DNA from: a virus
Direction: 5' to 3' (one strand)
Length of the DNA: 64,000 nucleotides
Virus record (IMG/VR): IMGVR_UViG_3300025122_006404
Span: 23,672 to 87,671 of that record
Part shown: positions 12,657 through 63,272 of the stretch, one piece after another
Layout of the letters: each line of letters opens with the position of its first letter
Position numbering within the stretch: the first letter of the stretch is position 1
Translations under genes and position numbers: made by a program
Notes under the pieces: model-generated
The model's input: the letters and a program-made list of their open reading frames with translations, nothing else
Told to the model about the DNA's origin: nothing
Database searches by the model: none

Positions 12657-12708
12657 TTTTATAAAAGTTATTAATTTTATCTTATCAATTTCCTATAATT
12701 AATATAGG

Positions 12709-13485: not shown

Positions 13486-13490
13486 TTTGA

Positions 13491-13518
13491 TGTAAATTGT
13501 ATTTCTCTATGATATAAT
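13491..13518 (+). promoter_or_regulatory. Promoter TGTAAA-N16-TATAAT (copy 2)
   Basis: TGTAAA 13491-13496, TATAAT 13513-13518 with TGA before it. Its -10 covers the first ATG of the deaminase frame, so translation must begin downstream, at the GTG at 13547. Confidence 0.75.
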
Positions 13519-13546
13519 GTTACATATATCGGAGAAGAAATGTCTA

Positions 13547-13912: not shown

Positions 13913-13924
13913 GAATAGTTTTTT

Positions 13925-14512
13925 TTACTGATTCAGAGTTTCTTGAATCAGTGTGTCAATCCAGGTGGAGCTAAATCCTTGTAATCTAGTGTGTAGTACC
14001 ATCTCATCAGTAATAAAAAAGAAAGTCGGCCATGCTGTTAATGGCCATCCATTTGTTCCGCTTACATCAATTAAATCACGTGAGCCAGCGAGGACTGGAG
14101 AGGTAATCCCATAGGTGTCACACCAATAGGTGATATCTGCTGCAGTGGGAGGGTCTCCCGTAGAATTTTCAATTAATACAGTGATATAGGTAATTTCTTC
14201 TGCATATTGATCTTGGACTTGCTGGACTTCTGCAGCTGCACTGTTGCAAGGTCCACACCACATCGTAGAGAGATCGAGAACAATAACACCACCATAATAA
14301 TCATAAAGAGAAATATCCATCAACAGCTGATTGCTTAGGGTAAAATTACAGGGATGATCTCCAGTATTTTGTGAGCAGGATTCCCACGACGCCCAGGGAT
14401 AAGGATCAGCTACGGGAGTATTGCTGGTATCGCCAGATGTCAGACTAGGCTTGCATCCCCCGAGTCCCATTATCATTAGTAGTCCCCAGTTTATCAAATT
14501 ATTTTTTAACAT
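13925..14512 (-). CDS. TlpA/redoxin-like lipoprotein (paralogue 2)
   Basis: 195 aa. Lipobox GLGGC (C20). Thioredoxin-fold core with CGPC at 86-89 (STMWCGPCN), ITVLIENSTGDPPT, ITSPVLAG, LTAWPTFFFI. The CGPC active site is that of classical thioredoxins, unlike CPVC and CGVC in its two neighbours, suggesting different redox potentials. Minus strand, same orientation as the VWA lipoprotein upstream. Confidence 0.85.
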   Translation of the reverse strand: MLKNNLINWGLLMIMGLGGCKPSLTSGDTSNTPVADPYPWASWESCSQNTGDHPCNFTLSNQLLMDISLYDYYGGVIVLDLSTMWCGPCNSAAAEVQQVQDQYAEEITYITVLIENSTGDPPTAADITYWCDTYGITSPVLAGSRDLIDVSGTNGWPLTAWPTFFFITDEMVLHTRLQGFSSTWIDTLIQETLNQ

Positions 14513-14537
14513 CTTAATTTCTAGTGCTCCTTATTTC

Positions 14538-15293
14538 TTACCGAACTATCCCAAATACATCATCAACCCAGCCGAAAACTATTTCCTCATTCCACCCAAG
14601 TAGACCGTTATGGACGGTTAGAGTCTCATCTACCACCACAATTGTTGGCCACGCAGAAATTGGATAACCATCTTCGGCAGTAAGATCGATAATGCTTCTA
14701 TCTCCAGCCAAGACAGGGGAAGTGGTCATGCCATACCTAGAAACCCAATCCTGAATTTCTGATGGCGTCGGCGGCGTTCCCCACGATGGTCCATCTACTA
14801 ATACCGTTACCCATAAGAAATCGTAGCCTAAAGCTGTGTAGGTATCTTGATGAATCTGAGCGTCTCCGGCGATACTGTTGCAGACTCCGCACCAGATTGT
14901 AGAAAAATCGACAACCATAACAGTGCCATAGTTGTCATAGAGTGACCAATCATTTCCATTTTGATCTTGGAATGTAAAGTCGCAAGCTTTTTCCCCGGGT
15001 TTTCCGCTACATTCAGTCCACGTAATGGGAGATGGATCTGTGTCCTCGACTGCAGAGTCACTATCACTGTCGGAAGTATCCGTGTTCGTGATATGAGTAT
15101 CTTTAATGACAGAATCATCATCGACGACGGAATCATCATCGACTGTGTCTTCTTCTATGACTGTGTCGTTCGAAGTTTTATCATTTATGCCTGTTGAAGT
15201 CTCCCCAGGCGTCGCGCAGCTTATGAGATTAGCTGTTGTGAAATTGGCCCACGCAAGTGCGGCCAAAAATATAAGTGATTTGTGTTTTAACAT
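14538..15293 (-). CDS. TlpA/redoxin-like lipoprotein (paralogue 3) with acidic linker
   Basis: 251 aa. Lipobox LISC (C26), then a 60-residue Asp/Ser/Thr-rich linker with repeats of DDDSV and DTD, then the redoxin core with CGVC at 135-138, TVLVDG, MTTSPVLAG, ISAWPTIVVV. The linker would hold the domain away from the membrane. Adjacent (3 nt) to the VWA lipoprotein gene, so probably one transcript. Confidence 0.85.
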   Translation of the reverse strand: MLKHKSLIFLAALAWANFTTANLISCATPGETSTGINDKTSNDTVIEEDTVDDDSVVDDDSVIKDTHITNTDTSDSDSDSAVEDTDPSPITWTECSGKPGEKACDFTFQDQNGNDWSLYDNYGTVMVVDFSTIWCGVCNSIAGDAQIHQDTYTALGYDFLWVTVLVDGPSWGTPPTPSEIQDWVSRYGMTTSPVLAGDRSIIDLTAEDGYPISAWPTIVVVDETLTVHNGLLGWNEEIVFGWVDDVFGIVR

Positions 15294-15296
15294 GTT

Positions 15297-16910
15297 TTAT
15301 TCTCCAGTGTCACAGTCCGCCCAAGCTGCATATTGTATATCAATTGAACTTTCATCTGCAGGCGCTACAGTAAATGAAACAGAATTGGCTGCGGTGTCAT
15401 ATGTCCAATCTGCTGAAAGTAAACCATCAACACTCACTATGATAGTGTCTTCAATGGGATAATCTGATAAAGGAAAAGAGAGCATCGACATTGAGTCTCT
15501 AGCTAATGTGTCCATAGTGACACTCCAATCTGCAGCGCAGATTGACATAAACGTTCCGCCCAGATCAGCCACGACGTCATAATATCCATCGCCGAACTGG
15601 GCGCTGCCATTTGACGTGCATCCAGAAGGATAATCACCAGCGACCGCATGTGCCACAACAAGCTCGTGAGAGCTTTTCAATGATTGAAGGTGCGTAGAAT
15701 AATCAGAAGGAGTCATTCCAGCTGATCCTCCTCCGTAGGCTGAAGTATTGGTAGAGGCATCAGGTTCGTCGGAAACATATACCACCACTAAGCGAGCCGA
15801 TGCTCTAAAAAATCCCGTTGCTGATCCCGGAGCTGCATCTCCACCAGTAGCTGTGGATTCATATGAATACCACAATCCTTTTTCAATTGGTGCTCCGTGG
15901 TATCCAATCGCATCGACCTGGTTGCTAAATTCTGCTACTGGATCAGGAGTAGCGGGAGTGATTATGTTTCCTACAAAACTGGCATCATCTGTGGTTATTA
16001 GAGCTACTTGATAATCTACTCCAGCACCTACAAAGACGGACATAAAATCTCCGAAATTATTTTTTAGATTAGTCTGATTAGAAGACATAGACCCAGAGTT
16101 ATCAACAACAAAAAGAATGTCTACTATTGCTTCTCCATCTTGTGTAAAATTATCTATCACCCAATACTCATAAGCTCCTAGTGCGCTGTGATCTGACATA
16201 ACAACGGGGTTAAGCGGATCGCTAGATACTATTTCAACATATGCATCGTCTGATAATAAGTCTAGCGGGGTGTAGTAAATTGTAAGGCTTAAAGAATCAC
16301 TGGGGGCAATAATCCACGGTAACGGTCCATTTTCAATTTCGTATTGAATCATTGAAAAGTCAACAGGGACTGTAACATAATATCTGATGTCATTTATTTC
16401 CAAATTAGCATTGCCAATATTTGAGATAGTAATATCAAATGAGTCATCACATCCAAGATAAACTGTTCCTAAGTCATGCGCGGCAGGATCTACTTCAATC
16501 ACAGGAGCGTCACCTTTTCCAGATAGATTGACTGTAACAATTTCCTCGTCTGGATCGTCTGATAAAATTGAAATCGAATTTATATTTGATTCGTAGGTAA
16601 TTGGGTCATAGGAAACTATAAGATCTGTAGATTTTCCCGGCTCTATTTCATTTGAAATTATATTTGTTATGGAATAAACTGACGTTGATAGATTAAATTT
16701 GATTGCATTAATATTGAGAACTTCATTCCCTGCGTTTGAGATCGTAATTGTTTCAAGAGATAGTTCGTATCCTGCATTTAATGATCCGAAATCAACTGTA
16801 GTTGGATTTACATCTATGTCAGGCTCACGGTCTACTTTTGGATGAAGTGCATAATCTGAGCAACTAAATAGAGAAAGAAGAATAACAAGTGACTGAATTA
16901 AACGAAACAT
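15297..16910 (-). CDS. Lipoprotein with choice-of-anchor-D repeats and VWA domain
   Basis: 537 aa from the ATG at 16910 (an upstream ATG at 16937 adds 9 residues before the signal peptide). Lipobox LFSC (C17). Two Ig-like repeats of the choice-of-anchor-D type (VDFGSLNAGYELSLETITISN... and AHDLGTVYLGCDDSFDITISN). Then VWA: ILFVVDNSGSM with MIDAS D270-N-S-G-S, YQVALITTDD, RLVVVYVSDEPD. Ends in the same beta-region as the 10652 lipoprotein. Surface-binding protein typical of predatory and myxobacterial genomes; probably captured from a host. Confidence 0.85.
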   Translation of the reverse strand: MFRLIQSLVILLSLFSCSDYALHPKVDREPDIDVNPTTVDFGSLNAGYELSLETITISNAGNEVLNINAIKFNLSTSVYSITNIISNEIEPGKSTDLIVSYDPITYESNINSISILSDDPDEEIVTVNLSGKGDAPVIEVDPAAHDLGTVYLGCDDSFDITISNIGNANLEINDIRYYVTVPVDFSMIQYEIENGPLPWIIAPSDSLSLTIYYTPLDLLSDDAYVEIVSSDPLNPVVMSDHSALGAYEYWVIDNFTQDGEAIVDILFVVDNSGSMSSNQTNLKNNFGDFMSVFVGAGVDYQVALITTDDASFVGNIITPATPDPVAEFSNQVDAIGYHGAPIEKGLWYSYESTATGGDAAPGSATGFFRASARLVVVYVSDEPDASTNTSAYGGGSAGMTPSDYSTHLQSLKSSHELVVAHAVAGDYPSGCTSNGSAQFGDGYYDVVADLGGTFMSICAADWSVTMDTLARDSMSMLSFPLSDYPIEDTIIVSVDGLLSADWTYDTAANSVSFTVAPADESSIDIQYAAWADCDTGE

Positions 16911-16950
16911 GTCATTAATATATATGTGCTCATGCAAGGTATGCCGATCA

Positions 16951-24166: not shown

Positions 24167-25699
24167 ATGCTATCTTGCTATAGTGAAATATTGTCGCCAG
24201 ACGCTTCGTATTTTTTAGAAGCTCTTTTTTCGTGTTTTCAAGACGATCTTAAATCTCTGCTAGAAGCCAGACAAGAAAGGCAGAAAGAATATGATCTTGG
24301 TAAGCTTCCAGATTTTCTTGAAGAGACTGCCAGCATTAGAGATGATAGTGTTTGGAAAGTCTCTGAAATCCCTCACGAGCTCTTAAATAGAAGAGTAGAA
24401 ATAACTGGTCCAACTGATAGAAAAATGGTGATAAATGCTCTTAATTCGGGAGCAAATGTTTTTATGGCAGATTTTGAAGATTCTCTTTCTCCTACTTGGA
24501 AAAACATCATAGAAGGTCAAAAAAATCTTAAAGATGCTGTTAACAGAACAATAGCATATGATCATCCTACTAAAGGAACCTATACACTAGACGATCAAAC
24601 GTCTGTGTTGTTCGTTCGCCCTCGAGGCTTACACTTAAAAGAGAAAAATTTTGAAATTAATGATAGTTCGATTTCTGCTTCGCTTTTTGATTTTGGAATA
24701 TTCATGTATCATAATGCAAATGAATTAGTGCAGCAGGGAACAGCTCCGTATTTTTATTTACCAAAGATTGAACACTACTTAGAAGCTAGATGGTGGAATA
24801 ATGTTTTTAACTGGGCACAGGACTATCTATCTATTCCAAGAGGTACGATTAGAGCAACAGTCTTAATCGAAACTTTGCCTGCAGCTTTTCAAATGGATGA
24901 AATTCTGTATGAGTTAAAAGACCATTCCGCCGGATTGAACTGCGGCAGGTGGGACTATATTTTTAGTTTTATTAAAACTATTAGAAATCATCCTGATAAA
25001 ATTTTGCCTAACAGATCACAGGTTACGATGATGTCTCATTGTATGAAGTCCTATAGAGATCTTCTCATACACACGTGTCACAAAAGAGGAATCCATGCCA
25101 TGGGAGGGATGGCAGCACAAATACCAATTAGAGACAATCCAGAAGAAAATGAAAAAGCTTTACAAGCTGTGAGAGAAGACAAGATCAGAGAAGTGCTTGC
25201 AGGCCATGATGGAACATGGGTAGCTCATCCAGGATTGATTCAGGTCGCCAAAGAAGTGTTTGATGAAATGATGCCTCATTCTAATCAGATTGAATTTTTA
25301 ACACCCAAAGTAAAAATTCAGAGCTCGGACTTGCTAAAGACTCCTCAAGGAGAAATCACAGAAGAAGGTCTTCGAAATAACATTAATATCGGGATCAGAT
25401 ATGTTGAATCGTGGCTTCGGGGAAATGGATGTGTTCCGCTTTATAATCTAATGGAAGATGCTGCCACAGCCGAAATTTCTAGAACTCAAGTGTGGCAGTG
25501 GATAAGACATGGTAAATTTACAGAGAAGGAATTTAAAAAAATATTAAGTGATGAGGTAAATAATATTAGAGTTCAAGTGGGAAATGTTGAGTTTATCAAT
25601 GGGAGATTTGCTGAAGCAGTATCTCTATTTGAAAAGTTATCAGTAGGTGAAGAGTTAGAGAATTTCTTAACTCTAGCAGCATATAAAAACATTGCATAG
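24167..25699 (+). CDS. aceB: Malate synthase (A-type)
   Basis: 510 aa, near full length. Visible: [11 protein letters not shown] near 103, the catalytic-region [32 protein letters not shown] and [17 protein letters not shown] in the barrel core, and [18 protein letters not shown] near the C-terminus, which carries the catalytic Asp. Condenses glyoxylate with acetyl-CoA to malate. Eight nt ahead of isocitrate lyase, so the two shunt enzymes form one operon. AT-rich and close in codon use to flanking phage genes, so probably long resident. Confidence 0.95.
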
Positions 25700-25707
25700 G
25701 ATTTAAA

Positions 25708-26952
25708 ATGATTAATGATAAAAGTGAAAGATGGAAAGGAACGAAAAGGGAGTGGACCCAAAGCGATGTGGATCGACTAAGGGGTAGTTTAAAAATAGAG
25801 TATTCTCTAGCACGACATGGTGCAGAAAAATTGTGGAATTTATTACATAGTGACGATCCAGTGGCTGCACTGGGTGCATTAACTGGCAATCAAGCTGTTC
25901 AGCAAGCAAGAGCCGGCTTAAAAGCTGTTTACTTGTCTGGTTGGCAAGTTGCTGCCGATGCTAATCTTTCGGGACACATGTATCCAGATCAAAGTCTATA
26001 TCCGGCCAATAGTGTTCCTCATGTTGTAAAGAGAATAAATCAAGCTCTTCAAAGAGCTGACCAAGTTGAGAGTGTGGAAGGAAAGATTACTCGAGACTGG
26101 ATGATTCCTATCGTGGCAGATGCAGAAGCTGGATTTGGGGGTCCTTTGAACGCTTATGAGCTAATGAAAGGAATGATTGAGTCCGGTGCAGCCGGAGTTC
26201 ACCTTGAAGATCAGCTCTCTTCAGAGAAAAAATGTGGCCATCTTGGAGGAAAAGTCTTAATTCCAACACAGCAATTTATAGTTACTCTTAAAGCTGCCAG
26301 GCTTGCTGCTGATGTCATGGGAGTACCTACAATTTTAATTGCTCGGACAGATGCTAACAGCGCTAAGATGATGACTTCTGATATAGATCCCTATGACCAT
26401 CCATTTATGACTGGAGAACGGACTCCAGAAGGATTCTATAGGATTACAGGAGGCATAGAATGTGCCATAGCTAGAGGATTAGCGTATGCACCCTATGCAG
26501 ATCTATTGTGGTGTGAAACATCAACTCCTGATCTCGATGAAGCTCAAAGATTTGCTGATGCTATTCACGAGAAACATCCGGGAAAGCTACTTGCGTATAA
26601 TTGTTCTCCGTCATTTAACTGGAGAAAGAATCTAGATGATGACACAATTGGCAAATTTCGACACGAACTAAACCGGATGGGGTATAAGTTTCAATTTGTT
26701 ACGCTAGCAGGCTTTCATTCTCTCAACTACAGCATGTTTGATCTAGCTAGTGAATATGAGAAAAAAGGAATGACAGCTTACGTGTCTCTTCAACAGAGAG
26801 AATTCGGCGCCGAGGACAGAGGATATACAGCTACCCGTCACCAGAGAGAGGTGGGAACCGGGTACTTTGATAGCGTGAGTGGAGTGCTAAGTAAAGGGAA
26901 ATCTTCTACTCTCGCACTCAGTGAGTCTACAGAGAGCGATCAATTTGAATAA
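25708..26952 (+). CDS. aceA: Isocitrate lyase
   Basis: 414 aa, slightly shorter than bacterial AceA. The active-site loop [11 protein letters not shown] with the catalytic Cys is intact. Also visible: [23 protein letters not shown] (metal-binding), [14 protein letters not shown] and YNCSPSFNW. Splits isocitrate into glyoxylate and succinate. Together with the adjacent malate synthase it bypasses the decarboxylating TCA steps, which would let an infected cell grow on acetate or fatty acids. Confidence 0.95.
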
Positions 26953-34952: not shown

Positions 34953-35249
34953 GTGAAAGTCGGAGATCTGGTGTGGTATAATGTAGGAGGATCACAAGAA
35001 ATGGGAATAATCCTACAGAGAAAAATGATGAAACTAGACGAATCTTTCGGGCTTCAGGATATGGTCCTTATTCTATGGAGCAAAGCTGGGAAAAAAGAGA
35101 GTCTAGATCCTCGGGGTCTTAGGCCGCGGACCTACGATGAGAATGGTCGACGATGGTCTCACTACTCTAAAGATAGGTCGATCTCCTGGGTGCGAGCCAA
35201 AACTTCAAGCGGATCTAGCATGTTTAAGGTGATCAGTGAAAGTCGGTGA
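34953..35249 (+). CDS. GDLV-family protein, first of array A
   Basis: 98 aa, GTG start. MKVGDLVWYNVGGSQEMGIILQRK, MVLILWSKAGKKESLDPRGL; ends MFKVISESR. The longest member, with an extra 30-residue loop before the last strand. The junction GGTGATCAGTGAAAGTC couples it to the next gene with 14 nt overlap. Confidence 0.75.
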   Translation: MKVGDLVWYNVGGSQEMGIILQRKMMKLDESFGLQDMVLILWSKAGKKESLDPRGLRPRTYDENGRRWSHYSKDRSISWVRAKTSSGSSMFKVISESR

Positions 35250-35436
35250 CCTGGTTTATATTTGTCCCGGTGATTCCACCATCGGAGTGTTTCTAGGCCC
35301 AGATGAAGATTATTTCTCGTATGAGCCCGAATCGAACGGGACGGTGCATCCTCTTAACCGATCTGAGGTATTTTTCGATAAAATCATTTGTTCTGTCCCA
35401 ACGTTTCAACTTGAAGCAATCAATGAAAATAGGTGA
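35236..35436 (+). CDS. GDLV-family protein
   Basis: 66 aa. MKVGDLVYICPGDSTIGVFLG..., ends FQLEAINENR. Overlaps neighbours by 14 nt at both ends. The C-terminal NENR replaces SESR because the next gene starts with ATG (CAATGAAAAT). Confidence 0.75.
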   Translation: MKVGDLVYICPGDSTIGVFLGPDEDYFSYEPESNGTVHPLNRSEVFFDKIICSVPTFQLEAINENR

Positions 35437-35620
35437 TTTAGTCACAGTTAAAGATAAAGATAGCCACGGAATAATTGTCGGAAGATTTCAAGCTTCACCT
35501 GGCCTATCACGTGGGTATCTAGTGCTTATTGAAGAAGAGATTGAGGAACGTTATAAATATGAGCTCTCAGTGAGGAAAGACTATGCAACCCGGAGACCTA
35601 GTAAGGTTTATGAAAAGTAA
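35423..35620 (+). CDS. GDLV-family protein
   Basis: 65 aa from the ATG at 35423 (the frame opens earlier but the family motif starts here). MKIGDLVTVKDKDSHGIIVGRF, GYLVLIEEEIEERYKYEL; tail lacks the SESR ending and runs 38 nt into the next gene. Confidence 0.7.
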   Translation: MKIGDLVTVKDKDSHGIIVGRFQASPGLSRGYLVLIEEEIEERYKYELSVRKDYATRRPSKVYEK

Positions 35621-35765
35621 TATGAAGGACCCAGAGTGGAGAATTGGAATACTTATTGAATACCAGAAGTGGGAAAAAATTGCTAGAATTTTATACGAGG
35701 GAAAAGTAATATCAATGAGGCCAGACCTTGTACAAGTTTATAAAAGAGGTAATAATTTAAAATGA
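35583..35765 (+). CDS. GDLV-family protein
   Basis: 60 aa. MQPGDLVRFMKSNMKDPEWRIGILIEYQKWEKIARILYEGKVISMRPDLVQVY. Very close to the 37637 protein (IGILIEYQKWEKIARILYEGK against MGLLIEYHNWEKIAMILYRGK), a recent duplication. Confidence 0.75.
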   Translation: MQPGDLVRFMKSNMKDPEWRIGILIEYQKWEKIARILYEGKVISMRPDLVQVYKRGNNLK

Positions 35766-35992
35766 ATCAAATTATGGATTGGAATGGTCGCTGTCACAGG
35801 TGCGGAGCTGAAACAGTTTTTCACACGATGTCTATATTTGACTGTGCACTTGTTTGCAAGAAGTGTTTTGACAGTGAAAGTAAGCATCCCAAGTATCTGC
35901 CAACTTCAACAAAAAAGCCTTCATCTACTTCGAGAGAAACCCCAGAGGTTTCTGGATCACTAGAGGAGTCAGCGGATGAAGTGGGAAGTTAA
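35762..35992 (+). CDS. Zinc-ribbon small protein, guest in array A
   Basis: 76 aa, ATGA overlap. CHRCGAET near 11 and CKKC near 37 form a four-cysteine zinc ribbon; the C-terminal half is Ser/Thr/Pro-rich and disordered. Probably a nucleic-acid or protein adaptor; no family recognised. Confidence 0.65.
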   Translation: MNQIMDWNGRCHRCGAETVFHTMSIFDCALVCKKCFDSESKHPKYLPTSTKKPSSTSRETPEVSGSLEESADEVGS

Positions 35993-36143
35993 AAAATTTA
36001 AAAACGGATGGGGAATCTTTCTAATGAAAGAGTTCTGTAAGACCGACGAACCAGTATGTTATGGGCTTAGCCTAAACAAGAAATCAGCTAAGAAAGCTGT
36101 TGAAAGATTAAACAATCCAATGTACGTTGAAGATCTATCATGA
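35976..36143 (+). CDS. Small hypothetical protein, 55 aa
   Basis: ATG at 35976 with GAGGAG ahead, overlapping the zinc-ribbon gene by 17 nt. KWEVKKFKNGWGIFLMKEFCKTDE... KSAKKAVERLNNPMYV. Coupled by ATGA to the next mini-gene. No family recognised. Confidence 0.6.
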   Translation: MKWEVKKFKNGWGIFLMKEFCKTDEPVCYGLSLNKKSAKKAVERLNNPMYVEDLS

Positions 36144-36226
36144 AAAAGAGAATAATTGAAGCAGGACTTTTTATGACTTTGATGATTTTGTGTACAGCCC
36201 TGGTATTTGTTCTAGCTGGAATGTAA
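36140..36226 (+). CDS. Membrane mini-protein, 28 aa
   Basis: KKRIIE then one hydrophobic span (AGLFMTLMILCTALVFVLAGM). Starts within the previous stop (ATGA) and abuts the next GTG, so it is translated in line. Confidence 0.55.
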   Translation: MKKRIIEAGLFMTLMILCTALVFVLAGM

Positions 36227-36421
36227 GTGAAAGTTGGAGACTTGGTACACTGGCTTGATTCTGTTGAGCTAGAAAAGGGATTAGGGATGGTGATAAAAAT
36301 TGTGAGGAAACCCAAGATCACAGACTGCGGATTCTATAGCGAATATCATATTCTTTCTGATGAGCCCGATATAAGGGCGTTTTTAGATTATGAATTAAAG
36401 GCACTAAGTGAAGCTAGTTAG
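36227..36421 (+). CDS. GDLV-family protein
   Basis: 64 aa. MKVGDLVHWLDSVELEKGLGMVIKIVRKPK..., ends ELKALSEAS. The 14-nt overlap with the MazG-like gene shows the junction also precedes non-family genes. Confidence 0.7.
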   Translation: MKVGDLVHWLDSVELEKGLGMVIKIVRKPKITDCGFYSEYHILSDEPDIRAFLDYELKALSEAS

Positions 36422-36713
36422 AGACCGAATTCCTCAAATAATTGAAGAAGGAGGAGGGTCGTGTGAATATCACGTTGCTGATTCTGATGAGTTTAAACAA
36501 AGACTATCTGACAAGATGAGGGAAGAGCTTAATGAGTTTATCGTTGATCCTTGTGTGGAAGAGGCAGCCGACATGCTTGAAGTCTTATTTGCGTTAACAG
36601 AGACTATCGACGTGGACTTCGAAGATGTTTTAGAAGTTGCACATAATAAGTTTGAAAAGCGAGGAGGCTTTAAAAACAGGATAGTCTTGGAGAAAGTAAA
36701 TGAGATTGAGTAA
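36408..36713 (+). CDS. MazG/PRA-PH-like nucleotide pyrophosphohydrolase
   Basis: 101 aa. MKLVRDRIPQIIEEGG at the start, then REELNEF and EEAADMLEVLFAL, the acidic helices that bind magnesium in all-alpha NTP pyrophosphatases. Probably hydrolyses (d)NTPs or an alarmone-like nucleotide. GTG start and 14-nt overlaps with both neighbours. Confidence 0.8.
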   Translation: MKLVRDRIPQIIEEGGGSCEYHVADSDEFKQRLSDKMREELNEFIVDPCVEEAADMLEVLFALTETIDVDFEDVLEVAHNKFEKRGGFKNRIVLEKVNEIE

Positions 36714-36876
36714 TCTAATCTTAGGATTATTTTTTGGATGTAATTCTGGGCTTTACCCATTAAACAATAGCTGTCCAGGCGGAAATGATTGTTGGTGTGA
36801 ATGGGATACAGGGCATCAATATTATCCACTGTTAGATGAATTTGGTAATATTATGTGTGACACGGGGGAAGAATGA
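36700..36876 (+). CDS. Small lipoprotein, 58 aa, guest in array A
   Basis: ATG 14 nt before the MazG-like stop. LILGLFFGC is a minimal signal with lipobox (C14). Mature part has four further cysteines (CPGGNDCWCEW). No family recognised. Confidence 0.6.
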   Translation: MRLSNLILGLFFGCNSGLYPLNNSCPGGNDCWCEWDTGHQYYPLLDEFGNIMCDTGEE

Positions 36877-37043
36877 AAGTTGGTGATTTGGTACAGAACG
36901 AGGAATTCGTCGGAATAGTCTTAAAGGCTGGAATAAACATGTGGGGTGAAGAGGTGATTCCGTCTGGCGTGCAAGTTTTGTGGAACGACGGCGAGATAGA
37001 AGTTGATTGGGAAGATGAGCTGGAGGTAATTGGTGAAATCTAA
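36873..37043 (+). CDS. GDLV-family protein, 56 aa
   Basis: MKVGDLVQNEEFVGIVLKAG..., GVQVLWNDGEIEVDWEDELEVIGEI: a minimal and very typical member (W-x-D-G before the last strand). Coupled by ATGA to the lipoprotein and overlapping the GIY-YIG gene by 11 nt. Confidence 0.7.
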   Translation: MKVGDLVQNEEFVGIVLKAGINMWGEEVIPSGVQVLWNDGEIEVDWEDELEVIGEI

Positions 37044-37317
37044 GGAGTGGTATCTTTATGTTGTTGAGTGCAGCGATGGAACATTCTACACCGGAGTGAC
37101 TACTGATATTCCTCGCAGGGTAAATGAGCATAACACAAGCGCAAGAGGAGCAAAGTACACTCGCAGTCGTCGACCGGTGAGAACGGTGTACTGGCGTAAG
37201 ATGGAAGATAAGTCCTCAGCACAGACGGAAGAGTCCAAGTTTAAAAGACTAAGTCGAAAACAAAAGCAGGAAATAATTTCAAGTCACCTTTTGGAGAAGA
37301 TAGGTGAACATAGGTGA
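37033..37317 (+). CDS. GIY-YIG nuclease, YhbQ/UvrC-like
   Basis: 94 aa from the GTG at 37033. WYLYVVECSDGTFYTGVTTDIPRRVNEHN shows the Y-L-Y...Y-T-G core, catalytic Arg, and the family's K-Y-T-R-S-R-R-P-V. E in TEESKFKRL is the expected metal ligand. Single-domain form like YhbQ; probably a structure-specific or homing-type endonuclease. Confidence 0.85.
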   Translation: MKSKEWYLYVVECSDGTFYTGVTTDIPRRVNEHNTSARGAKYTRSRRPVRTVYWRKMEDKSSAQTEESKFKRLSRKQKQEIISSHLLEKIGEHR

Positions 37318-37510
37318 TCTGGTGAAAATTGTTCCAAATAAGCCTCGGCATTATTACTCAAGCCAACATCAGGCTGGTTCAGAATTAGAAATTGTCGGAA
37401 TTCTAGTGAGCTTTGAGAAAAAGGAAAAAGATGGCGGTTGGGTAATTATGACCGGTAGCAGCTTAGAGACATACATTTCTACTTGGTGGAGCTGCGAGGT
37501 TATATCATGA
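37304..37510 (+). CDS. GDLV-family protein
   Basis: 68 aa. MNIGDLVKIVPNKPRHYY..., LEIVGILVSFEKKEKDGGWVIMTG. The start lies 14 nt before the GIY-YIG stop. Ends CEVIS at an ATGA overlap. Confidence 0.7.
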   Translation: MNIGDLVKIVPNKPRHYYSSQHQAGSELEIVGILVSFEKKEKDGGWVIMTGSSLETYISTWWSCEVIS

Positions 37511-37650
37511 ATTACATAGTGAATTACGCTGTTGGTAGCATGTTATGTGCATATATTTTTGGATTTATAACAGGCTGCTTAGTAGAAACTTATTATAGAG
37601 ACTCAATGAATTTACAGAAAAAAGCTAACAAAAACAATGAAAGCCGGTGA
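37507..37650 (+). CDS. Membrane mini-protein ending in the junction peptide, 47 aa
   Basis: One membrane span (AVGSMLCAYIFGFITGCLVE) then a basic tail ending N-N-E-S-R. It is unrelated to the GDLV family yet carries the family's C-terminal NESR, because those bases also encode the next start (AATGAAAGCCGGTGA). Confidence 0.6.
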   Translation: MNYIVNYAVGSMLCAYIFGFITGCLVETYYRDSMNLQKKANKNNESR

Positions 37651-37819
37651 GATGGTGAGATTCCGCACTAAGTCAAAATCATTTTTTTCTAGATATGAGA
37701 CCTGGGAAATGGGGTTGCTAATTGAATATCACAATTGGGAAAAGATCGCTATGATACTCTACAGGGGAAAAATATTTAGAGTTAGAGAATCAGATACCCA
37801 GAGATTAGAGGAAAAGTAA
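37637..37819 (+). CDS. GDLV-family protein, last of array A
   Basis: 60 aa. MKAGEMVRFRTKSKSF..., MGLLIEYHNWEKIAMILYRGKIFRVRESDTQRLEEK. Near-duplicate of the 35583 protein. 14-nt overlap upstream. Confidence 0.7.
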   Translation: MKAGEMVRFRTKSKSFFSRYETWEMGLLIEYHNWEKIAMILYRGKIFRVRESDTQRLEEK

Positions 37820-48235: not shown

Positions 48236-48637
48236 ATGTCTAGATCAAAGCTCAAGGAGGGAGATCTGGTCGTGGCTGTTGGAGCCACTCTCACCCATAA
48301 GGGCCCGTCTGAGAGGCATCGCATTATGGCTCACATCATTGCCACGGGAAAGTATGACGTCTTTGCCCAGGAGGAGGGTAGCAACAGAGTTTTTAAAATC
48401 AGTGGCAATCGATGTCTTAAGGTAAACGACGGAGACGTGGATTCCACAGCGGAGGTCACGGTTCCTAAGCTTGGAGATCTCGTCTTATCTATTTCTGAGA
48501 GATTTGGAAAAGTTGAGAAAAAAATGGGTGTGCTGATGGAAATTGTTGATGTTCCGGGAAGGTCGATGATGGTTAAGCTGATGAATGGCGACAAGTCTGA
48601 GACCGCGTTATTTGATAATTTAATTGTTTTGGAATAA
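48236..48637 (+). CDS. Two-domain GDLV protein
   Basis: 133 aa with two family domains: KLKEGDLVVAVGATL... (5-63) and VPKLGDLVLSISERFGKVEKKMGVLMEIVD... VKLMNGDKSETALFDNLIVLE (75-133). Shows that the small GDLV unit can be duplicated within one chain. ATG directly follows the previous stop. Confidence 0.7.
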   Translation: MSRSKLKEGDLVVAVGATLTHKGPSERHRIMAHIIATGKYDVFAQEEGSNRVFKISGNRCLKVNDGDVDSTAEVTVPKLGDLVLSISERFGKVEKKMGVLMEIVDVPGRSMMVKLMNGDKSETALFDNLIVLE

Positions 48638-48719: not shown

Positions 48720-49040
48720 ATGAAAATTACCCGTAGACAATTAAGAAAGCTATTAGCTGAAACTTTTGCACCGATTGATAGACAATACTTTGGAGTGGGC
48801 GTGGATCAGATCGTTGAAGCGTGGAAAGAGAATATGCACAACCTATACGAGCAGGCCCCACATCTCTTTATGGGACGTAGCACCCAAAGTGAGTGGATAG
48901 ATCAGGTGGATAAAGCCGCTAAAGAATTTCAAGAGAGGCTGGAAAATGCTATTCTCGATAGTAGTCTCCAAGTGGAGGATCTACTTCATGACGGTCACTT
49001 TCACGAGAGAGATACCTCAAAAGAGGGTCCCGGAGCATGA
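48720..49040 (+). CDS. Tagged hypothetical protein, 106 aa
   Basis: Tag MKITRRQLRKLLAETFAPI. Body helical (VDQIVEAWKENMHNLYEQAPHLF...). The 82-nt gap before it is AT-rich with no clear promoter; AGAGGCG serves as a weak ribosome binding site. ATGA overlap downstream. Confidence 0.7.
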   Translation: MKITRRQLRKLLAETFAPIDRQYFGVGVDQIVEAWKENMHNLYEQAPHLFMGRSTQSEWIDQVDKAAKEFQERLENAILDSSLQVEDLLHDGHFHERDTSKEGPGA

Positions 49041-49600
49041 GACTCACTCGATCCCGACTAAGAAGGATTATCACGGAGGAGCTCCATGCTTCCTTGTGTG
49101 AGGCAAGAGTTACCGGTGGATATCGAGCGGGAGTCACCGGTGGACTCGCAGTGGGAGACAAGGTCCAGCACAAGGAGGATGCACACCTGGGAGTTGGCAC
49201 TGTTCGTGGCAAGCACAAGCATCGTAGCTTAGGTCACCTCATTCTGGTACAGTGGGAGGATGGTCACTCCAGCACACATATTCCCAGCGCTCTGGCCCCA
49301 GCCGGTGCATTGCGTGATGAGCCTACAACTCTTGATTCCGACGAGCTTCGACAGATTGCCGATGAGCTTGACGAGTCATTTAAAAGCTTGATTGAACAAC
49401 CGGTTGAAAAGGGAGTTACTCCTGATTCAATTGAATTTATTCTTCAAAGGTTAACAGACATCGAGTCAGATCTAATGGGGTCAAATGGCATCCTTCCCAA
49501 AATTGAAAATGCGGTCGAGGAATTATCAGATACGCTAACTGACTTGCCTGATAAGTTGACTCCCGAGAAACAAGCAACTAGAGTTGAGAGCGGGGATTAA
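49037..49600 (+). CDS. Tagged protein with SH3-like domain and TLDSDELR motif
   Basis: 187 aa combining three recurrent elements: tag MRLTRSRLRRIITEELHASLCE (1-22), a GDLV-like barrel (LAVGDKVQHKEDAHLGVGTVRG... LILVQWEDGHSSTHIPSALAP, 37-88), and TLDSDELRQIADELDES (98-114). The C-terminal part is helical. It links the tag system to the small-barrel family. Confidence 0.7.
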   Translation: MRLTRSRLRRIITEELHASLCEARVTGGYRAGVTGGLAVGDKVQHKEDAHLGVGTVRGKHKHRSLGHLILVQWEDGHSSTHIPSALAPAGALRDEPTTLDSDELRQIADELDESFKSLIEQPVEKGVTPDSIEFILQRLTDIESDLMGSNGILPKIENAVEELSDTLTDLPDKLTPEKQATRVESGD

Positions 49601-52408: not shown

Positions 52409-52663
52409 ATGAGCGTGATGGGACCAGATGGAAAGATTCTACAGCCTGGCGGCGGATGGTGGTCTCCTTATGGAGATACTGATGAGGAGATCCGAGAGAA
52501 CATGAAGACCGGTCGGATGCCGAATGCTCCGGGTGCGGTGCGAGTGGGACCCAAAAGTATCACTGGTAGCAAACGGGGAGACCGATCTCTTCTTGATGCT
52601 CTGGGAGATATGGGGGCTCTTGGGGGTCAGGCAAAAGAAGCCTACGAGCGCAGTAAGAAATGA
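52409..52663 (+). CDS. Hypothetical Gly-rich protein, 84 aa
   Basis: First gene after the promoter; AAAGGAAAAAG before the ATG. GGGWWSPYGDTDEEIRENMKTG..., little predicted structure. ATGA overlap with the first GDLV gene of array B. No family recognised. Confidence 0.6.
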   Translation: MSVMGPDGKILQPGGGWWSPYGDTDEEIRENMKTGRMPNAPGAVRVGPKSITGSKRGDRSLLDALGDMGALGGQAKEAYERSKK

Positions 52664-52887
52664 AAGAAGGGGATCTAGTAAAGGTGAAGGACTGTGCTGC
52701 TCCAATCAACCCCATCGACTTTCCTTGTGAATGTTTTTTCTGTAGCGGAAACTCTAATCGTATTGGATTAATCATGTCACCCGCACCAATGAATAGTTGG
52801 CTGGTTATGTTTGACTGCGGAGAGTGGCGACTTGACACATTTGATTTTGCACGGGGCGATGCAGAGGTGATCAGTGAAAGCCGGTGA
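52660..52887 (+). CDS. GDLV-family protein with Cys pairs
   Basis: 75 aa. MKEGDLVKVKDCAAPINPIDFPCECFFCSGNSNRIGLIMS, WLVMFDCGEWRLDTFDF; ends AEVISESR. Four cysteines in the first loop (C-x-C-x-x-C) could bind zinc, an insertion unlike other members. Confidence 0.75.
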   Translation: MKEGDLVKVKDCAAPINPIDFPCECFFCSGNSNRIGLIMSPAPMNSWLVMFDCGEWRLDTFDFARGDAEVISESR

Positions 52888-53077
52888 CCTGATTAAAATG
52901 GTGGTGTATAATCGAACCCAAGACAGCCGGAATCAGGTTGGGCTGGTGATTAGCATTGAGCATCGGTATGTTGGCGGACCCCATCGAATCGCTACAGTAT
53001 TGAGCGACTCGGGAAAAGTAGCAACCTGGCCAATTGACAGCCATTATCAGCTGGAGGTGATCAATGAAAGTCGGTGA
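52874..53077 (+). CDS. GDLV-family protein
   Basis: 67 aa, GTG start, 14-nt overlaps at both ends. MKAGDLIKMVVYNRTQDSRNQVGLVISIEHRYVGGPHRIATVLSDSGKVATW..., ends LEVINESR. Confidence 0.75.
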   Translation: MKAGDLIKMVVYNRTQDSRNQVGLVISIEHRYVGGPHRIATVLSDSGKVATWPIDSHYQLEVINESR

Positions 53078-53240
53078 CCTGGTGCAATATGAACATCCCA
53101 ACTCAACATCGAATGTGGGTCTAATCATCGATACACATCGTAACGAGTATGGCGGGTACTTCACAGTGTCAGTACTATGGGAAGACGGTGATATTTGGGT
53201 GCATGAAGCGGACGAGTTTAAGGTTGTTAGTGACAAATGA
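53064..53240 (+). CDS. GDLV-family protein
   Basis: 58 aa. MKVGDLVQYEHPNSTSNVGLIIDTHRNEYGGYFTVSVLWEDGDIWVHEADEFKVVSDK. Typical. It loses the ESR ending; the next ATG uses a 4-nt ATGA overlap instead. Confidence 0.75.
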   Translation: MKVGDLVQYEHPNSTSNVGLIIDTHRNEYGGYFTVSVLWEDGDIWVHEADEFKVVSDK

Positions 53241-53428
53241 AAGTCGGTGATCTGGTAAAGAACCTAAACTCGGAATCTCAGATGATGGGTATCATCGTAG
53301 GCTGGACTGCTCCCCACGGAAACTCCGATCCCCGAAAAGGTCATCGAGAGCCGATTGTCTTGTGGGCAGATGGTAGACGCAACTGGATTGTTCTTAGTAG
53401 AGTAGAGGTTGTCAATGAAAGTCGGTGA
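53237..53428 (+). CDS. GDLV-family protein
   Basis: 63 aa. MKVGDLVKNLNSESQMMGIIVGWTAPHGNSDPRKGHREPIVLWADGRRNWIVLSRVEVVNESR. Here GAGGTTGTC replaces GAGGTGATC, a weaker ribosome-binding match. Confidence 0.75.
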   Translation: MKVGDLVKNLNSESQMMGIIVGWTAPHGNSDPRKGHREPIVLWADGRRNWIVLSRVEVVNESR

Positions 53429-53654
53429 CGTGGTAAAGTTCTCAGAGGATCACATTCGATCACCCGGATATGCATACGTTCAGGACTGGATCGGCATTAT
53501 TATTGAAGCCAAAACTACAGGCTTTCACCATCCAATTGATGAGGTAAGGATAATGTGGACGGCATGCGGAACTACACAAATTTCGCACTACGATGAGATC
53601 TGGTGGAGCAATCTCGGCTACGAGCCGTTTGAGGTGATCAATGAAAATCGGTGA
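53415..53654 (+). CDS. GDLV-family protein
   Basis: 79 aa from ATG 53415. MKVGDVVKFSEDHIRSPGYAYVQDWIGIIIEAKTT..., VRIMWTACGTTQISHYDEIWW; ends FEVINENR. 14-nt overlaps on both sides. Confidence 0.75.
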   Translation: MKVGDVVKFSEDHIRSPGYAYVQDWIGIIIEAKTTGFHHPIDEVRIMWTACGTTQISHYDEIWWSNLGYEPFEVINENR

Positions 53655-53853
53655 CCTTGTGAGAAGAAGCGACGATGAAACTTTCGAGAGCGAGGGTTAC
53701 GCAATAGTTCTCGGTTTTAAACCAAGAGGCTGGTCTCGTGACCCGAATCCAGATTGCGATGTGTGGAATGACGCCATTCTTATGTTTTCTGATGACTCTG
53801 AACCGTGTTTCGTTATGAGAGCTCAGCTGGAGGTAGTTAGTGAGGGAAGTTAA
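53641..53853 (+). CDS. GDLV-family protein
   Basis: 70 aa. MKIGDLVRRSDDETFESEGYAIVLGFKPRGW..., AILMFSDDSEPCFVMRAQLEVVSEGS. SEGS instead of SESR because the next gene begins V-R-E. Confidence 0.75.
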   Translation: MKIGDLVRRSDDETFESEGYAIVLGFKPRGWSRDPNPDCDVWNDAILMFSDDSEPCFVMRAQLEVVSEGS

Positions 53854-54028
53854 ATTAAGAGATCCTTATGGATGCACAATTATTTGTATGTGTGAAAAAC
53901 ACTTTTCAAGCTATCTATCTCAATTAGAAAGCGCATATCGAGGCGGGACAGCTTATTCTTCTACTCGAACAAGTCAGCGCGGATGTGAATTTTGCAGAAG
54001 GGAAAAAAATGAAAACAACAATAACTAA
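53840..54028 (+). CDS. Cys-rich small protein, guest in array B
   Basis: 62 aa, GTG start at the 14-nt junction. MREVKLRDPYGCTIICMCEKHFSSYL... GCEFCRREKNENNNN: C-x-C and C-x-x-C pairs with a His, a likely zinc site. Not a GDLV protein. Confidence 0.65.
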   Translation: MREVKLRDPYGCTIICMCEKHFSSYLSQLESAYRGGTAYSSTRTSQRGCEFCRREKNENNNN

Positions 54029-54284
54029 TACAGCTGGTATTCTATACCTCGTAGAAAACGCTAAAGGAAGAAATCGTTCGGTGTATGAAGAAAAGTTTGC
54101 TCAACATGTAGACCCAGAAGGAACACATGTAATGGGGTTTAACATGTTGCACAACGATATTGAGATGCGTACACAGTGGATGTGTAAGATGAGAGATGCA
54201 GACGAACCCGTAGAGATCTGGCTAGATGTTGACTTTGATGTGCTACAAGAATGTACGACAGAAATTGAAACAGTAGAGCCATGA
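54009..54284 (+). CDS. Hypothetical protein, 91 aa, guest in array B
   Basis: Start at ATG 54009, 20 nt inside the Cys-rich gene. KTTITNTAGILYLVENAKGRNRSVYEEKFAQHVDPEGTHVMGFNMLHNDIEMRTQWMCKM... acidic alpha/beta. No family recognised. Confidence 0.65.
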   Translation: MKTTITNTAGILYLVENAKGRNRSVYEEKFAQHVDPEGTHVMGFNMLHNDIEMRTQWMCKMRDADEPVEIWLDVDFDVLQECTTEIETVEP

Positions 54285-54487
54285 ATATAGGTGATCTGGT
54301 CCGGATGCCCAGGTTTAATGAAGAAGATGCTATTTTTCTCGTGCTGAGAAGGGATGAGCAAATGTATTGGAAAAAATATGATGATTCTTCGAAATGGGCG
54401 CAGTGGCATATCATGCAGGTAAGTACATCGAAAATATATGTACAATCGGGAAGAGACATGGAGGTGATTAGTGTTGCAAATAGGTGA
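54281..54487 (+). CDS. GDLV-family protein
   Basis: 68 aa. MNIGDLVRMPRFNEEDAIFLVLRRDEQMYWKKYDDSSKWAQWHIMQVSTSKIYVQSGRDMEVISVANR. ATGA overlap upstream; ends in ANR where others have ESR. Confidence 0.75.
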   Translation: MNIGDLVRMPRFNEEDAIFLVLRRDEQMYWKKYDDSSKWAQWHIMQVSTSKIYVQSGRDMEVISVANR

Positions 54488-54728
54488 TTTGGTCAGATTC
54501 TTTGATTATGATGAGTGTGCCGCTAATAGGGACCGAATTGTGCCACGTGACGATTATTGGAGAATTGGCATTGTTACGGAGATTCGTCACGAGCCGTGGG
54601 ATGATGATTGGGATCCAAGCTGTTTACCTTGTGTAGTTGTGACTAGCAATTGTCATAGTCAGCCTATTGTGATGCCCAATAAGCACAACATTGGAACTTG
54701 GGTAGAGGTGATAAGTGAGAGTCGGTGA
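54471..54728 (+). CDS. GDLV-family protein
   Basis: 85 aa from GTG 54471 (TTG 54474 would restore the 14-nt overlap). MLQIGDLVRFFDYDECAANRDRIVPRDDYWRIGIVTEIRHEPWDDDWDPSCLPCVVVTSN..., ends VEVISESR. Confidence 0.75.
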   Translation: MLQIGDLVRFFDYDECAANRDRIVPRDDYWRIGIVTEIRHEPWDDDWDPSCLPCVVVTSNCHSQPIVMPNKHNIGTWVEVISESR

Positions 54729-54933
54729 TTTGGTGAGATGTATCTGGCAACCATCTTCATCGGGACTGGTAAATGGCTGTACTATTCCGATGAAGCACAC
54801 CATCTTGGGAGAGCTGGGAATCATTGTACATCAACGTCTTGAAGTAGATCATCACACAATCCTGTTTCCAAAGTTTGGATATGAGCATGTATTTTCGTCC
54901 GGTGCATTTGAGGTGATCAGTGAATGTCGGTGA
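54715..54933 (+). CDS. GDLV-family protein
   Basis: 72 aa, GTG. MRVGDLVRCIWQPSSSGLVNGCTIPMKHTILGELGIIVHQRLEVDHHTILFPKFG..., ends FEVISECR. Confidence 0.75.
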   Translation: MRVGDLVRCIWQPSSSGLVNGCTIPMKHTILGELGIIVHQRLEVDHHTILFPKFGYEHVFSSGAFEVISECR

Positions 54934-55102
54934 TTTGGTGAGCTGGAAAAGTAAACGGATCCTTGAGGATGAGTCAGACACTGGCATTGTAGTGAGCGAG
55001 ATTCGGCATGGTGTGAATTCATCTTTCGTAGATGTGTTGGTAGACGGAAAGGTGATACCTGTGAACTGGCTAGCTTTGAAGGTGATCAATGAAAGTCGGT
55101 GA
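54920..55102 (+). CDS. GDLV-family protein
   Basis: 60 aa, GTG. MNVGDLVSWKSKRILEDESDTGIVVSEIRHGVNSSFVDVLVDGKVIPVNWLALKVINESR. One of the cleanest five-strand members. Confidence 0.8.
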   Translation: MNVGDLVSWKSKRILEDESDTGIVVSEIRHGVNSSFVDVLVDGKVIPVNWLALKVINESR

Positions 55103-55301
55103 TTTGGTAATGTTGAAACGACTTGACAGTCTGATATACGGGCTCAACGAGGTTTCTCGTGGTCATGACAGTATTATGGGTATTGTTACTGAAGTCATAC
55201 CGCCTGGCCAGACAACTGATGGCGCTGCATGGGTGATGTTCGGTACGATTTACAAATCCATTTCGTTAATGCACCTTGAGGTGATAAGTGAAGGTGGGTG
55301 A
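55089..55301 (+). CDS. GDLV-family protein
   Basis: 70 aa, ATG. MKVGDLVMLKRLDSLIYGLNEVSRGHDSIMGIVTEVIPPGQTTDGAAWVMFGTIYKSISLMHLEVISEGG. Confidence 0.75.
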   Translation: MKVGDLVMLKRLDSLIYGLNEVSRGHDSIMGIVTEVIPPGQTTDGAAWVMFGTIYKSISLMHLEVISEGG

Positions 55302-55476
55302 TATGGTAATGAGCCGTCCCGGATATTTTCCAGCTGTTGGAATTGTCATCCGCATATTTGAGATTGATAGTCTTCCGGAACACTTGGTAGTCTTACCGAT
55401 GGTGGAACTTATGACCCAGGATGGATTACGAACATGGAAGAGAAGAAAATTGAAGGTGATCAGTGAAAGTCGGTGA
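55288..55476 (+). CDS. GDLV-family protein
   Basis: 62 aa, GTG. MKVGDMVMSRPGYFPAVGIVIRIFEIDSLPEHLVVLPMVELMTQDGLRTWKRRKLKVISESR. Confidence 0.75.
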   Translation: MKVGDMVMSRPGYFPAVGIVIRIFEIDSLPEHLVVLPMVELMTQDGLRTWKRRKLKVISESR

Positions 55477-55639
55477 TTTAGTGAAAAGTTTAGTTGACCT
55501 TACAGATGAATGTCAAGCTGGCATCATAACAAGATTTGTCATTGATTCACTAGGCGAGCAGGGAGCAATGATTCTCTGGGACCATGGAGAGATATGCTAT
55601 TTCCCTGTAGAAGAGCTTGAGGTGATTAGTGAGGTTTGA
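55463..55639 (+). CDS. GDLV-family protein, last of array B
   Basis: 58 aa, GTG. MKVGDLVKSLVDLTDECQAGIITRFVIDSLGEQGAMILWDHGEICYFPVEELEVISEV. Ends with an 11-nt overlap into an unrelated larger gene. Confidence 0.75.
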   Translation: MKVGDLVKSLVDLTDECQAGIITRFVIDSLGEQGAMILWDHGEICYFPVEELEVISEV

Positions 55640-62588: not shown

Positions 62589-62840
62589 TCATTGATCCTT
62601 CCACGGGGTGATCCACTCTGCCAGCACAGCCTCTTCCACCGCGCCCTTATAGACGATGTCATAGACCGTGCACACTCCGATGTTCATTCCCTCAAGCCAC
62701 TTCCGGTTTGCTTCGTCGTTATAGGGAAATATCTTCGGCACAGACTCGTAGATTCTTAGGATGATTCCAGCCTCGTCATAACACTCTTCTGTTGCTGATG
62801 ACTTCACCAATCTGATGAGATCTCCAACTTGATATTCCAT
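62589..62840 (-). CDS. GDLV-family protein on the minus strand
   Basis: 83 aa from the ATG at 62840 (the open frame upstream is not protein-like). MEYQVGDLIRLVKSSATEECYDEAGIILRIYES..., TVYDIVYKGAVEEAVLAEWITPW. The only family member in reverse orientation, among tagged genes. Confidence 0.6.
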   Translation of the reverse strand: MEYQVGDLIRLVKSSATEECYDEAGIILRIYESVPKIFPYNDEANRKWLEGMNIGVCTVYDIVYKGAVEEAVLAEWITPWKDQ

Positions 62841-62945
62841 AACACAAATAACTATCGAGCGCCCAGACACGTGCAACCCGGGCACGGTTAACAATAAAAA
62901 CACTGAGAAAGAGTTATATGTATATACAGGAAGAAAGAGGTTCAA

Positions 62946-63272
62946 ATGCGCATCACCAAGAAACAACTTAGAAGGATCATCAAGGAAGAGCTGAATGAGG
63001 TCGATTTACCAAGATCTTTGGGTCCACGTCCAGGCGGTTCGCTCAGCCCTCTTGGGAATTTGGCAGAAGATATTCTCTCCCTGATAAAGAATCTTACCAA
63101 CAAAGTCGACTCAGACTTCGGCGATGACCCCATGACAAGAAAAGATATTATTGAATTTGTACTGAAAATGCTATTCGAAGAAGAGCCTAGCGCTATGGTA
63201 GCTGGAAAGGTTTCTCCCACATGGGCTAGAAGAAAATATGCTGGACCCTTGGATCCTGGGGCGGACTTTTAA
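62946..63272 (+). CDS. Tagged hypothetical protein, 108 aa
   Basis: Tag MRITKKQLRRIIKEELNEVDLPR. Pro/Gly hinge, helical middle (LAEDILSLIKNLTNKVDSDFG, DIIEFVLKMLF). AAGAAAGAGG before ATG. No family recognised. Confidence 0.7.
   Translation: MRITKKQLRRIIKEELNEVDLPRSLGPRPGGSLSPLGNLAEDILSLIKNLTNKVDSDFGDDPMTRKDIIEFVLKMLFEEEPSAMVAGKVSPTWARRKYAGPLDPGADF

Follow-up and report, generated by a model that had tools for sequence, protein, structure and literature searches.

Why should a virus keep a row of small, divergent genes for what looks like one and the same protein, and how is such a row put together? The question is raised by 13 genes at positions 52660-55639 of a 64,000-nucleotide (nt) stretch of DNA, hereafter the window, which comprises bases 23672-87671 of the 87,671-base IMG/VR record IMGVR_UViG_3300025122_006404 of a marine bacterial virus. 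The part of the record upstream of the window encodes a phage-type DNA polymerase and a helicase, which marks the record as that of a large phage-like virus; GroEL, a sigma factor, tRNAs and metabolic genes are present as well. The answer that we consider probable is a "plug-in polycistron", in which the genes come from a library of small binding proteins common to many phages and are exchanged gene by gene at a short conserved junction, the seam.

The GDLV family

The 13 proteins (58-85 amino acids, aa) start with M-K-V-G-D-L-V or a near variant and are called GDLV units here. Units were called as open reading frames (ORFs), with no gene caller, and searched with a family hidden Markov model (HMM) that had been built partly from most of the 13 array units (cut-off E < 1e-3). 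All 13 match this model, with E-values from 1.4e-5 to 1.8e-10, so the thirteen genes listed in a preliminary description of the locus are confirmed. That description had also presented them as a single tandem array. The members indeed lie head to tail, but two unrelated ORFs split them into a run of six units (52660-53853) and a run of seven (54281-55639). Its estimate of over 30 copies in 64 kb was too high: 23 ORFs of the window pass the cut-off, one of them (35303-35620) being the unit 35423-35620 called from a start further upstream, while the ORF at 37637 is a look-alike and three others (33534, 48236 and, on the minus strand, 62589) are marginal matches. The window has about 24 clear members; a search of the whole record gave 22, and bases 1-24000 of the record yielded no further member.

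Relatives were fetched from IMG/VR by one exact DNA pattern of the junction, which retrieved at least 100 stretches (labelled L001 onward); the family statistics on lineages, overlaps and exchange given below refer to these loci together with the window. They contain at least 1,071 members, at least 983 of them distinct, and the longest runs comprise 15 units. The profile of the 13 array units recurs in the 983 distinct members, nearly all of which come from other loci. These fall into 790 lineages (Chao1 estimate ~4,300). Between 10 and 31 copies were counted in each of 20 virus records, which comprise that of the window and a further 19 of 158-293 kb; the copies are mostly clustered. Among GTDB genomes, seven stretches from metagenome-assembled genomes carried the seam pattern. 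Several HMM members were present in six of them, and one of the six, L109, equals an IMG/VR contig of the set in length, so that at least part of these stretches are binned virus contigs.

No family covering the GDLV units was found in Pfam, PHROGs, NCBIfam or PADLOC. Searches of the INPHARED phages by tblastn with one member and a made-up consensus gave no credible relative (best E 0.03), Rfam returned only tRNAs, and topic searches of the literature gave nothing on such arrays, the sequence motifs turning up only as chance letter strings in unrelated texts. The best fold matches in BFVD were uncharacterised small viral proteins from the UniProt A0A516 block (50-70 aa, top identities of 31-36%, several per accession block); these are likely further members of the family.

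A seam of stop, ribosome site and start

The seam is 32 nt long, TGGAGGTGATCA[G/A]TGAAAGTCGGTGATTTGGT, and is conserved from -12 to +19 in 427 junctions with a 14-nt overlap. It combines an extended Shine-Dalgarno sequence, the start of the next gene (GTG at 242 and ATG at 178 of the 427 seams) and the stop of the previous gene. Its upstream frame reads LEVI-S/N-E-S-R-stop, its downstream frame M-K-V-G-D-L-V. The overlap of consecutive members is exactly 14 nt in 459 cases, placing the stop of one gene within codons 4-5 of the next, and 4 nt or 10 nt in a further 50 and 16 cases, respectively. Within the window, the junction consensus has ten matches at three or fewer mismatches versus none in 100 shuffles, which bears out the near-identical junction noted before.

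The codons for LEVI spell GGAGGTGATC, the complement of the usual 3′ end of bacterial 16S rRNA, and place its GGAGG core 6 nt ahead of the next start. In 285 of the 427 seams, versus 25 after shuffling, a stretch of 6 nt or more is identical to the complement of the 16S 3′ end. Codon choice points in the same direction: the glutamate of LEVI is encoded by GAG in 310 of 317 units preceding a 14-nt-coupled family unit but in 19 of 29 units without a following ORF, and GAG makes up 45% of the glutamate codons in the unit bodies. Selection hence acts on the RNA and not only on the protein. The C-terminal strand is kept as protein, and its codons are tuned as the ribosome site of the next gene. The embedded Shine-Dalgarno sequences thus support, as far as can be judged from the DNA, the translational relay proposed for the array, in which ribosomes leaving one unit would re-initiate on the next.

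The seam is not tied to the fold of the GDLV proteins, since other genes ride on it: a MazG-like, a GIY-YIG, an Smr-like and a DNA ligase-like gene (all but the GIY-YIG gene named by eye) start in the same seam. Single-strand folding of the seam gave no significant structure (z-scores of -1.3 to +0.4 compared with shuffles), and RNA structure at this site was dropped as a candidate feature. Sigma-70-like promoters were found downstream of 16% of the run ends versus 1.6% in shuffles, about ten times as many, which suggests separate and perhaps early transcription units for a host-type polymerase.

Predicted fold and constraint of the proteins

Two units were modelled with AlphaFold. Unit 13, based on an alignment of 83 sequences, is predicted to form an SH3-like barrel of five strands, the last of which is preceded by a short turn (predicted local distance difference test, pLDDT, 91; predicted template modelling score, pTM, 0.75). 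The longer unit 5 is predicted with five strands in identical order (pLDDT 77). Among solved structures, those nearest to the unit 13 model are PetP, Tudor, PWWP, SmiA, R67 DHFR and YorP, none below E 1e-3, and the matches of unit 5 include the RNA-polymerase-binding Tudor domain of UvrD (E 0.13). Sequence profiles gave weak matches to the KOW regions of NusG, Spt5 and uL24 (E 0.0017-0.05), and Pfam KOW (PF00467) matched none of the window units scanned and one of 83 members (E 0.0031). Taken together, the two models, the weak NusG, Spt5 and uL24 profiles and the Tudor, PWWP and PetP matches favour the SH3/KOW-like fold expected from the preliminary description. With small SH3-like barrels (KOW, Tudor, PWWP, PetP, R67 DHFR, Mib-Herc2) the units would share the five strands and the short turn before the last of them; they differ in that sequence similarity is marginal and the units are free-standing. 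Fusion of a unit to another domain occurs nearly never, with one double-domain ORF (L099:748-1164), and catalytic-domain fusion was dropped as a functional hint because no credible case was found.

The distance from GDLV to GIV ranges from 6 to 28 residues and that from GIV to VxWxxG from 5 to 29 (central 90%). Diversity is therefore carried by the loops, in agreement with what had been proposed. Net charge extends from -19 to +16 (mean -0.15) with many acidic units, a spread that rules out a uniform nucleic-acid mimic or a uniform RNA binder. In 241 unit pairs at 60-97% identity, the pooled ratio of non-synonymous to synonymous differences (pN/pS) in the bodies was 0.31, corresponding to a dN/dS of ~0.17, and pN/pS was below 1 in all 235 measurable pairs. 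The units are hence real, constrained proteins, with a dN/dS not near 1. The lineage of unit 1 (window 52660-52887; L035, L050, L076, L101) carries a CxCFFC cysteine cluster that suggests a metal-binding variant of the barrel.

Exchange of units between phages

If the array had grown by paralogous expansion in place, as first described, neighbours should resemble each other. Their similarity is not above that of distant units: identity reaches 50% in 1 of 679 adjacent pairs versus 14 of 6139 non-adjacent pairs in one locus, and 70% in no adjacent pair. Instead, 107 lineages, with 300 of the 983 units, recur in the sample, for the most part at other loci and with a changed order, and some lineages retain at least 90% identity between phages. 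When units at least 60% identical are compared between different loci and both have a close neighbour, the next neighbour is unrelated in 113 of 127 and the previous one in 108 of 123 cases.

The borders of similarity coincide with the seam. DNA identity between near-identical units stays high until 5 nt past the stop and then falls to ~0.25; on the upstream side it drops within the Shine-Dalgarno stretch, reaching ~0.25 outside the seam. Alignments end at most 20 nt from a unit end in 73% of cases, versus 38% for random positions. Of 58 pairs of near-identical units, 8 keep both flanks, versus 67 of 127 pairs of non-family genes from the same loci (Fisher p 3e-7). Replacement in place is clearest between L028 and L011, where a wholly different middle unit stands between units that are 97% and 98% identical in protein, and similarity breaks off and returns inside the two seams; other pairs of loci differ by gain or loss of 1-4 units. 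In the window, unit 8 shares 87% nt identity with L055 over 54461-54738, that is, the unit and its seams only (~10 nt on each side). For the non-family ORF directly upstream of the array, the DNA shared with L051 (75% over 274 nt) stops no more than 20 nt from the ORF boundary.

A mechanism that would account for these observations treats each unit as a cassette that is complete in itself and encodes one small SH3-like barrel. The unit opens with the 3′ half of a seam, which supplies the start codon, the codons for MKVGDLV and, in another frame, the TGA stop of the predecessor; it closes with the 5′ half of the following seam, whose LEVI codons would serve as ribosome site for the successor. 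Because a unit brings its own start, its predecessor's stop and its successor's ribosome site, a crossover anywhere in the seam should leave expression intact, and replacement by any other unit, or by a foreign gene with a suitable start, would keep stop, ribosome site and start in register. Such exchange may occur via short homology between seams during co-infection. The products could be host-directed binding proteins, with varied loops for different targets; a role as host-takeover or counter-defence effectors is plausible and fits diverse small binders in a variable phage region. As a wider and more tentative proposal, which we regard as possible without favouring it, large marine phages might draw on a common, recombining pool of effector genes, thousands in number and each for a single domain, with the seam serving as stop, ribosome-binding site, start and exchange site at once and whole polycistrons for host-directed binding proteins being rebuilt in co-infection, with frame and expression preserved and with no need for an integrase.

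Several observations speak against exchange of binding proteins at the seams, or weaken the case for it. At the window's own array, no promoter above chance was found. Charges reveal no common binding surface, which suits varied targets and equally drift in a permissive fold, and none of 83 members matched the defence families of PADLOC. The exact seam pattern used as bait favours coupled arrays and may inflate the share of 14-nt overlaps. Unit pairs share members, so that the pair counts represent non-independent events, and mosaicism is general among phages, with 31% of the control gene pairs also differing on both flanks. As seam identity is expected from function alone, a breakpoint can be placed only to within ~30 nt.

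Alternative explanations and known systems

Ordinary tandem amplification, with repeated copying of one ancestral unit at its site and later divergence, would explain that one fold and one junction occur throughout and that the arrays run head to tail. It is contradicted by the low identity of adjacent units, by lineages recurring elsewhere among other neighbours and by the unit replaced in place, and it appears improbable; as a current mode it is largely refuted; the family itself may have arisen by duplication long ago. Integrons are mobile arrays of interchangeable one-gene cassettes with an open pool and a shuffled order, and the GDLV arrays resemble them in all these respects as well as in their conserved junction. 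A site-specific recombinase acting on the seam is nevertheless very improbable: the seam is not notably structured and no attC-like structure was detected, start, stop and Shine-Dalgarno sequence suffice to explain its bases, and a Pfam scan of the common neighbour proteins, which covered these proteins only, showed no integrase. GDLV cassettes further differ from those of integrons in that the coding sequence itself holds stop, ribosome site and start.

With regard to function, the units might be KOW/NusG-like nucleic-acid binders or transcription modulators that contact RNA polymerase, ribosome or RNA and steer host or phage expression. The weak NusG, Spt5 and uL24 matches and the UvrD Tudor domain found for unit 5 would agree with this idea, but with a mean net charge of about zero, many acidic units, a single one of 83 members reaching Pfam KOW at 0.01 and dozens of distinct regulators per genome to be explained, we consider it unlikely. 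A similarly doubtful view sees the units as selfish or nearly neutral filler, which the seam would allow to be taken up without operon damage and which would pack the genome or buffer a hypervariable site. The open pool (790 lineages in 983 units), the clustering of units in few regions and a marine cyanophage that gained laboratory fitness on losing a whole ORFan region (PMC4503421) are consistent with filler; purifying selection in every measurable pair and the preservation of some lineages at high identity across phages argue against it.

The seam is akin in part to two known elements and identical to neither, and the protein family it joins is absent from the libraries searched. In T4-type phages, promoter-early stem-loop (PeSL) elements between small accessory genes have been proposed to mediate one-gene shuffling where exchange is intense (Arbiol 2010, Comeau 2014, as cited in PMC4503421). 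Going by the account in that source, the seam shares with them a short repeated regulatory element that bounds one-gene exchange between large phages, whereas PeSL elements are transcriptional (promoter plus stem-loop) and intergenic and the seam is translational, falls within the terminal codons of the two genes and joins members of one fold. An early promoter with a stem-loop between genes was not found here; the genes of a run overlap, and promoters come after run ends. In cluster K mycobacteriophages, many non-structural genes from various families have 13-bp Start-Associated Sequences (SAS) at their translation starts, and a function in initiating translation has been proposed for these (PMC3203893). 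The seam likewise occurs at the starts of genes of different families, as the MazG-like, GIY-YIG, Smr-like and ligase-like genes illustrate; SAS differ in lying upstream of the start only and in having an extended form with inverted repeats, and neither a 14-nt overlap nor a common fold is described for them. The SAS consensus, GGGATAGGAGCCC at 3-7 bp before the start, was not found either, as the TGGAGGTGATCA part of the seam directly abuts the start.

The analysis thereby names a large uncatalogued protein family with at least 1,000 members. A start/stop seam that makes units interchangeable gives a concrete reason for the variable small-gene regions of large marine phages and represents a natural design for polycistrons with swappable parts. 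If the products are effectors, the seam would allow thousands of candidate proteins for host takeover or counter-defence to be mined by sequence.

Features of the window and further observations

The features of the array and the family members elsewhere in the window are given in the table.

Table. GDLV units, neighbouring ORFs and an example seam, with positions in the window
Feature	Position	Strand	Remarks
Non-family ORF upstream of array, 84 aa	52409..52663	+	stop overlaps unit 1 ATG by 4 nt
Unit 1, 75 aa	52660..52887	+	first loop with CxCFFC insertion; lineage #6, shared with L035, L050, L055, L076, L101
Unit 2, 67 aa	52874..53077	+	overlaps both neighbours by 14 nt
Example seam GGAGGTGATCAATGAAAGTCGGTGACCTGGTG	53053..53084	+	Shine-Dalgarno sequence, unit 3 start, unit 2 stop
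Unit 3, 58 aa	53064..53240	+	shares 4 nt with unit 4
Unit 4, 63 aa	53237..53428	+	lineage #20, also in L008, L064, L090
Unit 5, 79 aa	53415..53654	+	ATG start, alternative TTG at 53409; AlphaFold model
Unit 6, 70 aa	53641..53853	+	HMM match
Non-family Cys/His-rich ORF (cargo gene), 62 aa	53840..54028	+	start inside same 14-nt seam
Non-family ORF within array, ~91 aa	54009..54284	+	homologue in L063 (77% nt), similarity from its ATG onward
Unit 7, 68 aa	54281..54487	+	HMM match
Unit 8, 85 aa	54471..54728	+	alternative TTG start at 54474; lineage #25
Unit 9, 72 aa	54715..54933	+	lineage #85, also in L025
Unit 10, 60 aa	54920..55102	+	HMM match
Unit 11, 70 aa	55089..55301	+	HMM match
Unit 12, 62 aa	55288..55476	+	HMM match
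Unit 13, 58 aa	55463..55639	+	AlphaFold model, SH3-like barrel
ORF after array, 166 aa	55629..56129	+	GTG start, 11-nt overlap with unit 13, preceded by the same GAGGTGATTA Shine-Dalgarno sequence; IMG/VR search gave no relative
Array A core	34953..35765	+	overlapping run: 34953-35249, 35236-35436, 35423-35620, 35583-35765
Unit	36227..36421	+	tail is start site of MazG-like ORF 36408-36713 (named by eye, no Pfam match)
Unit	36873..37043	+	tail is start site of GIY-YIG nuclease ORF 37030-37317
Member, 68 aa	37304..37510	+	HMM match
Member-like ORF, GEMV variant, 60 aa	37637..37819	+	added by hand to alignment A1; absent from HMM match list
Solitary member, 75 aa	40005..40232	+	HMM match
Solitary member, 68 aa	23656..23862	+	HMM match
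Solitary weak member, 72 aa	11581..11799	+	E 3.5e-4

As a whole, the array A set spans 34953-37819. At 62589-62966, the marginal minus-strand match (E 0.0086) could represent a lone member lying against the local gene direction. Two ORFs for larger proteins (48236-48637 and 49037-49600) contain GDLV-like or VQWEDG-like SH3-type stretches and are possibly distant barrel domains. Among the neighbours of the arrays in the fetched loci, a MoxR-like AAA ATPase beside a DUF2201 metallopeptidase/VWA-like protein was found near arrays in 21 loci (e.g., L015:10840-13387).

Elsewhere in the window, host-like housekeeping genes occur at 2820-23035, namely GroEL, an RpoD-type sigma factor and peptide deformylase-like, DNA ligase-like, GreA-like, TilS-like and DnaJ-like genes, and a cluster of genes for secreted thioredoxin/TlpA-like and other surface-protein-like products lies on the minus strand at 12000-16940. 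Malate synthase and isocitrate lyase, both enzymes of the glyoxylate shunt, are encoded next to each other at 24167-26952 (Pfam E 4e-111 and 2e-104). Between 42001 and 44000, the guanine-cytosine content rises from ~0.38 to 0.60 and is 0.43-0.52 from there onward; a gene at 42359 for a 639-aa lipoprotein-like product may be a recent acquisition. Finally, at least ten proteins encoded within 26997-63976 (26997, 44377, 45707, 47458, 49037, 49919, 56191, 59685, 61455 and 63305) carry an N-terminal motif like MKITRRQLRRIIREE, possibly a packaging signal or a cleaved leader; a second, internal copy seems to be present in 44377 and 63305, and 61455 has an SLT transglycosylase domain.

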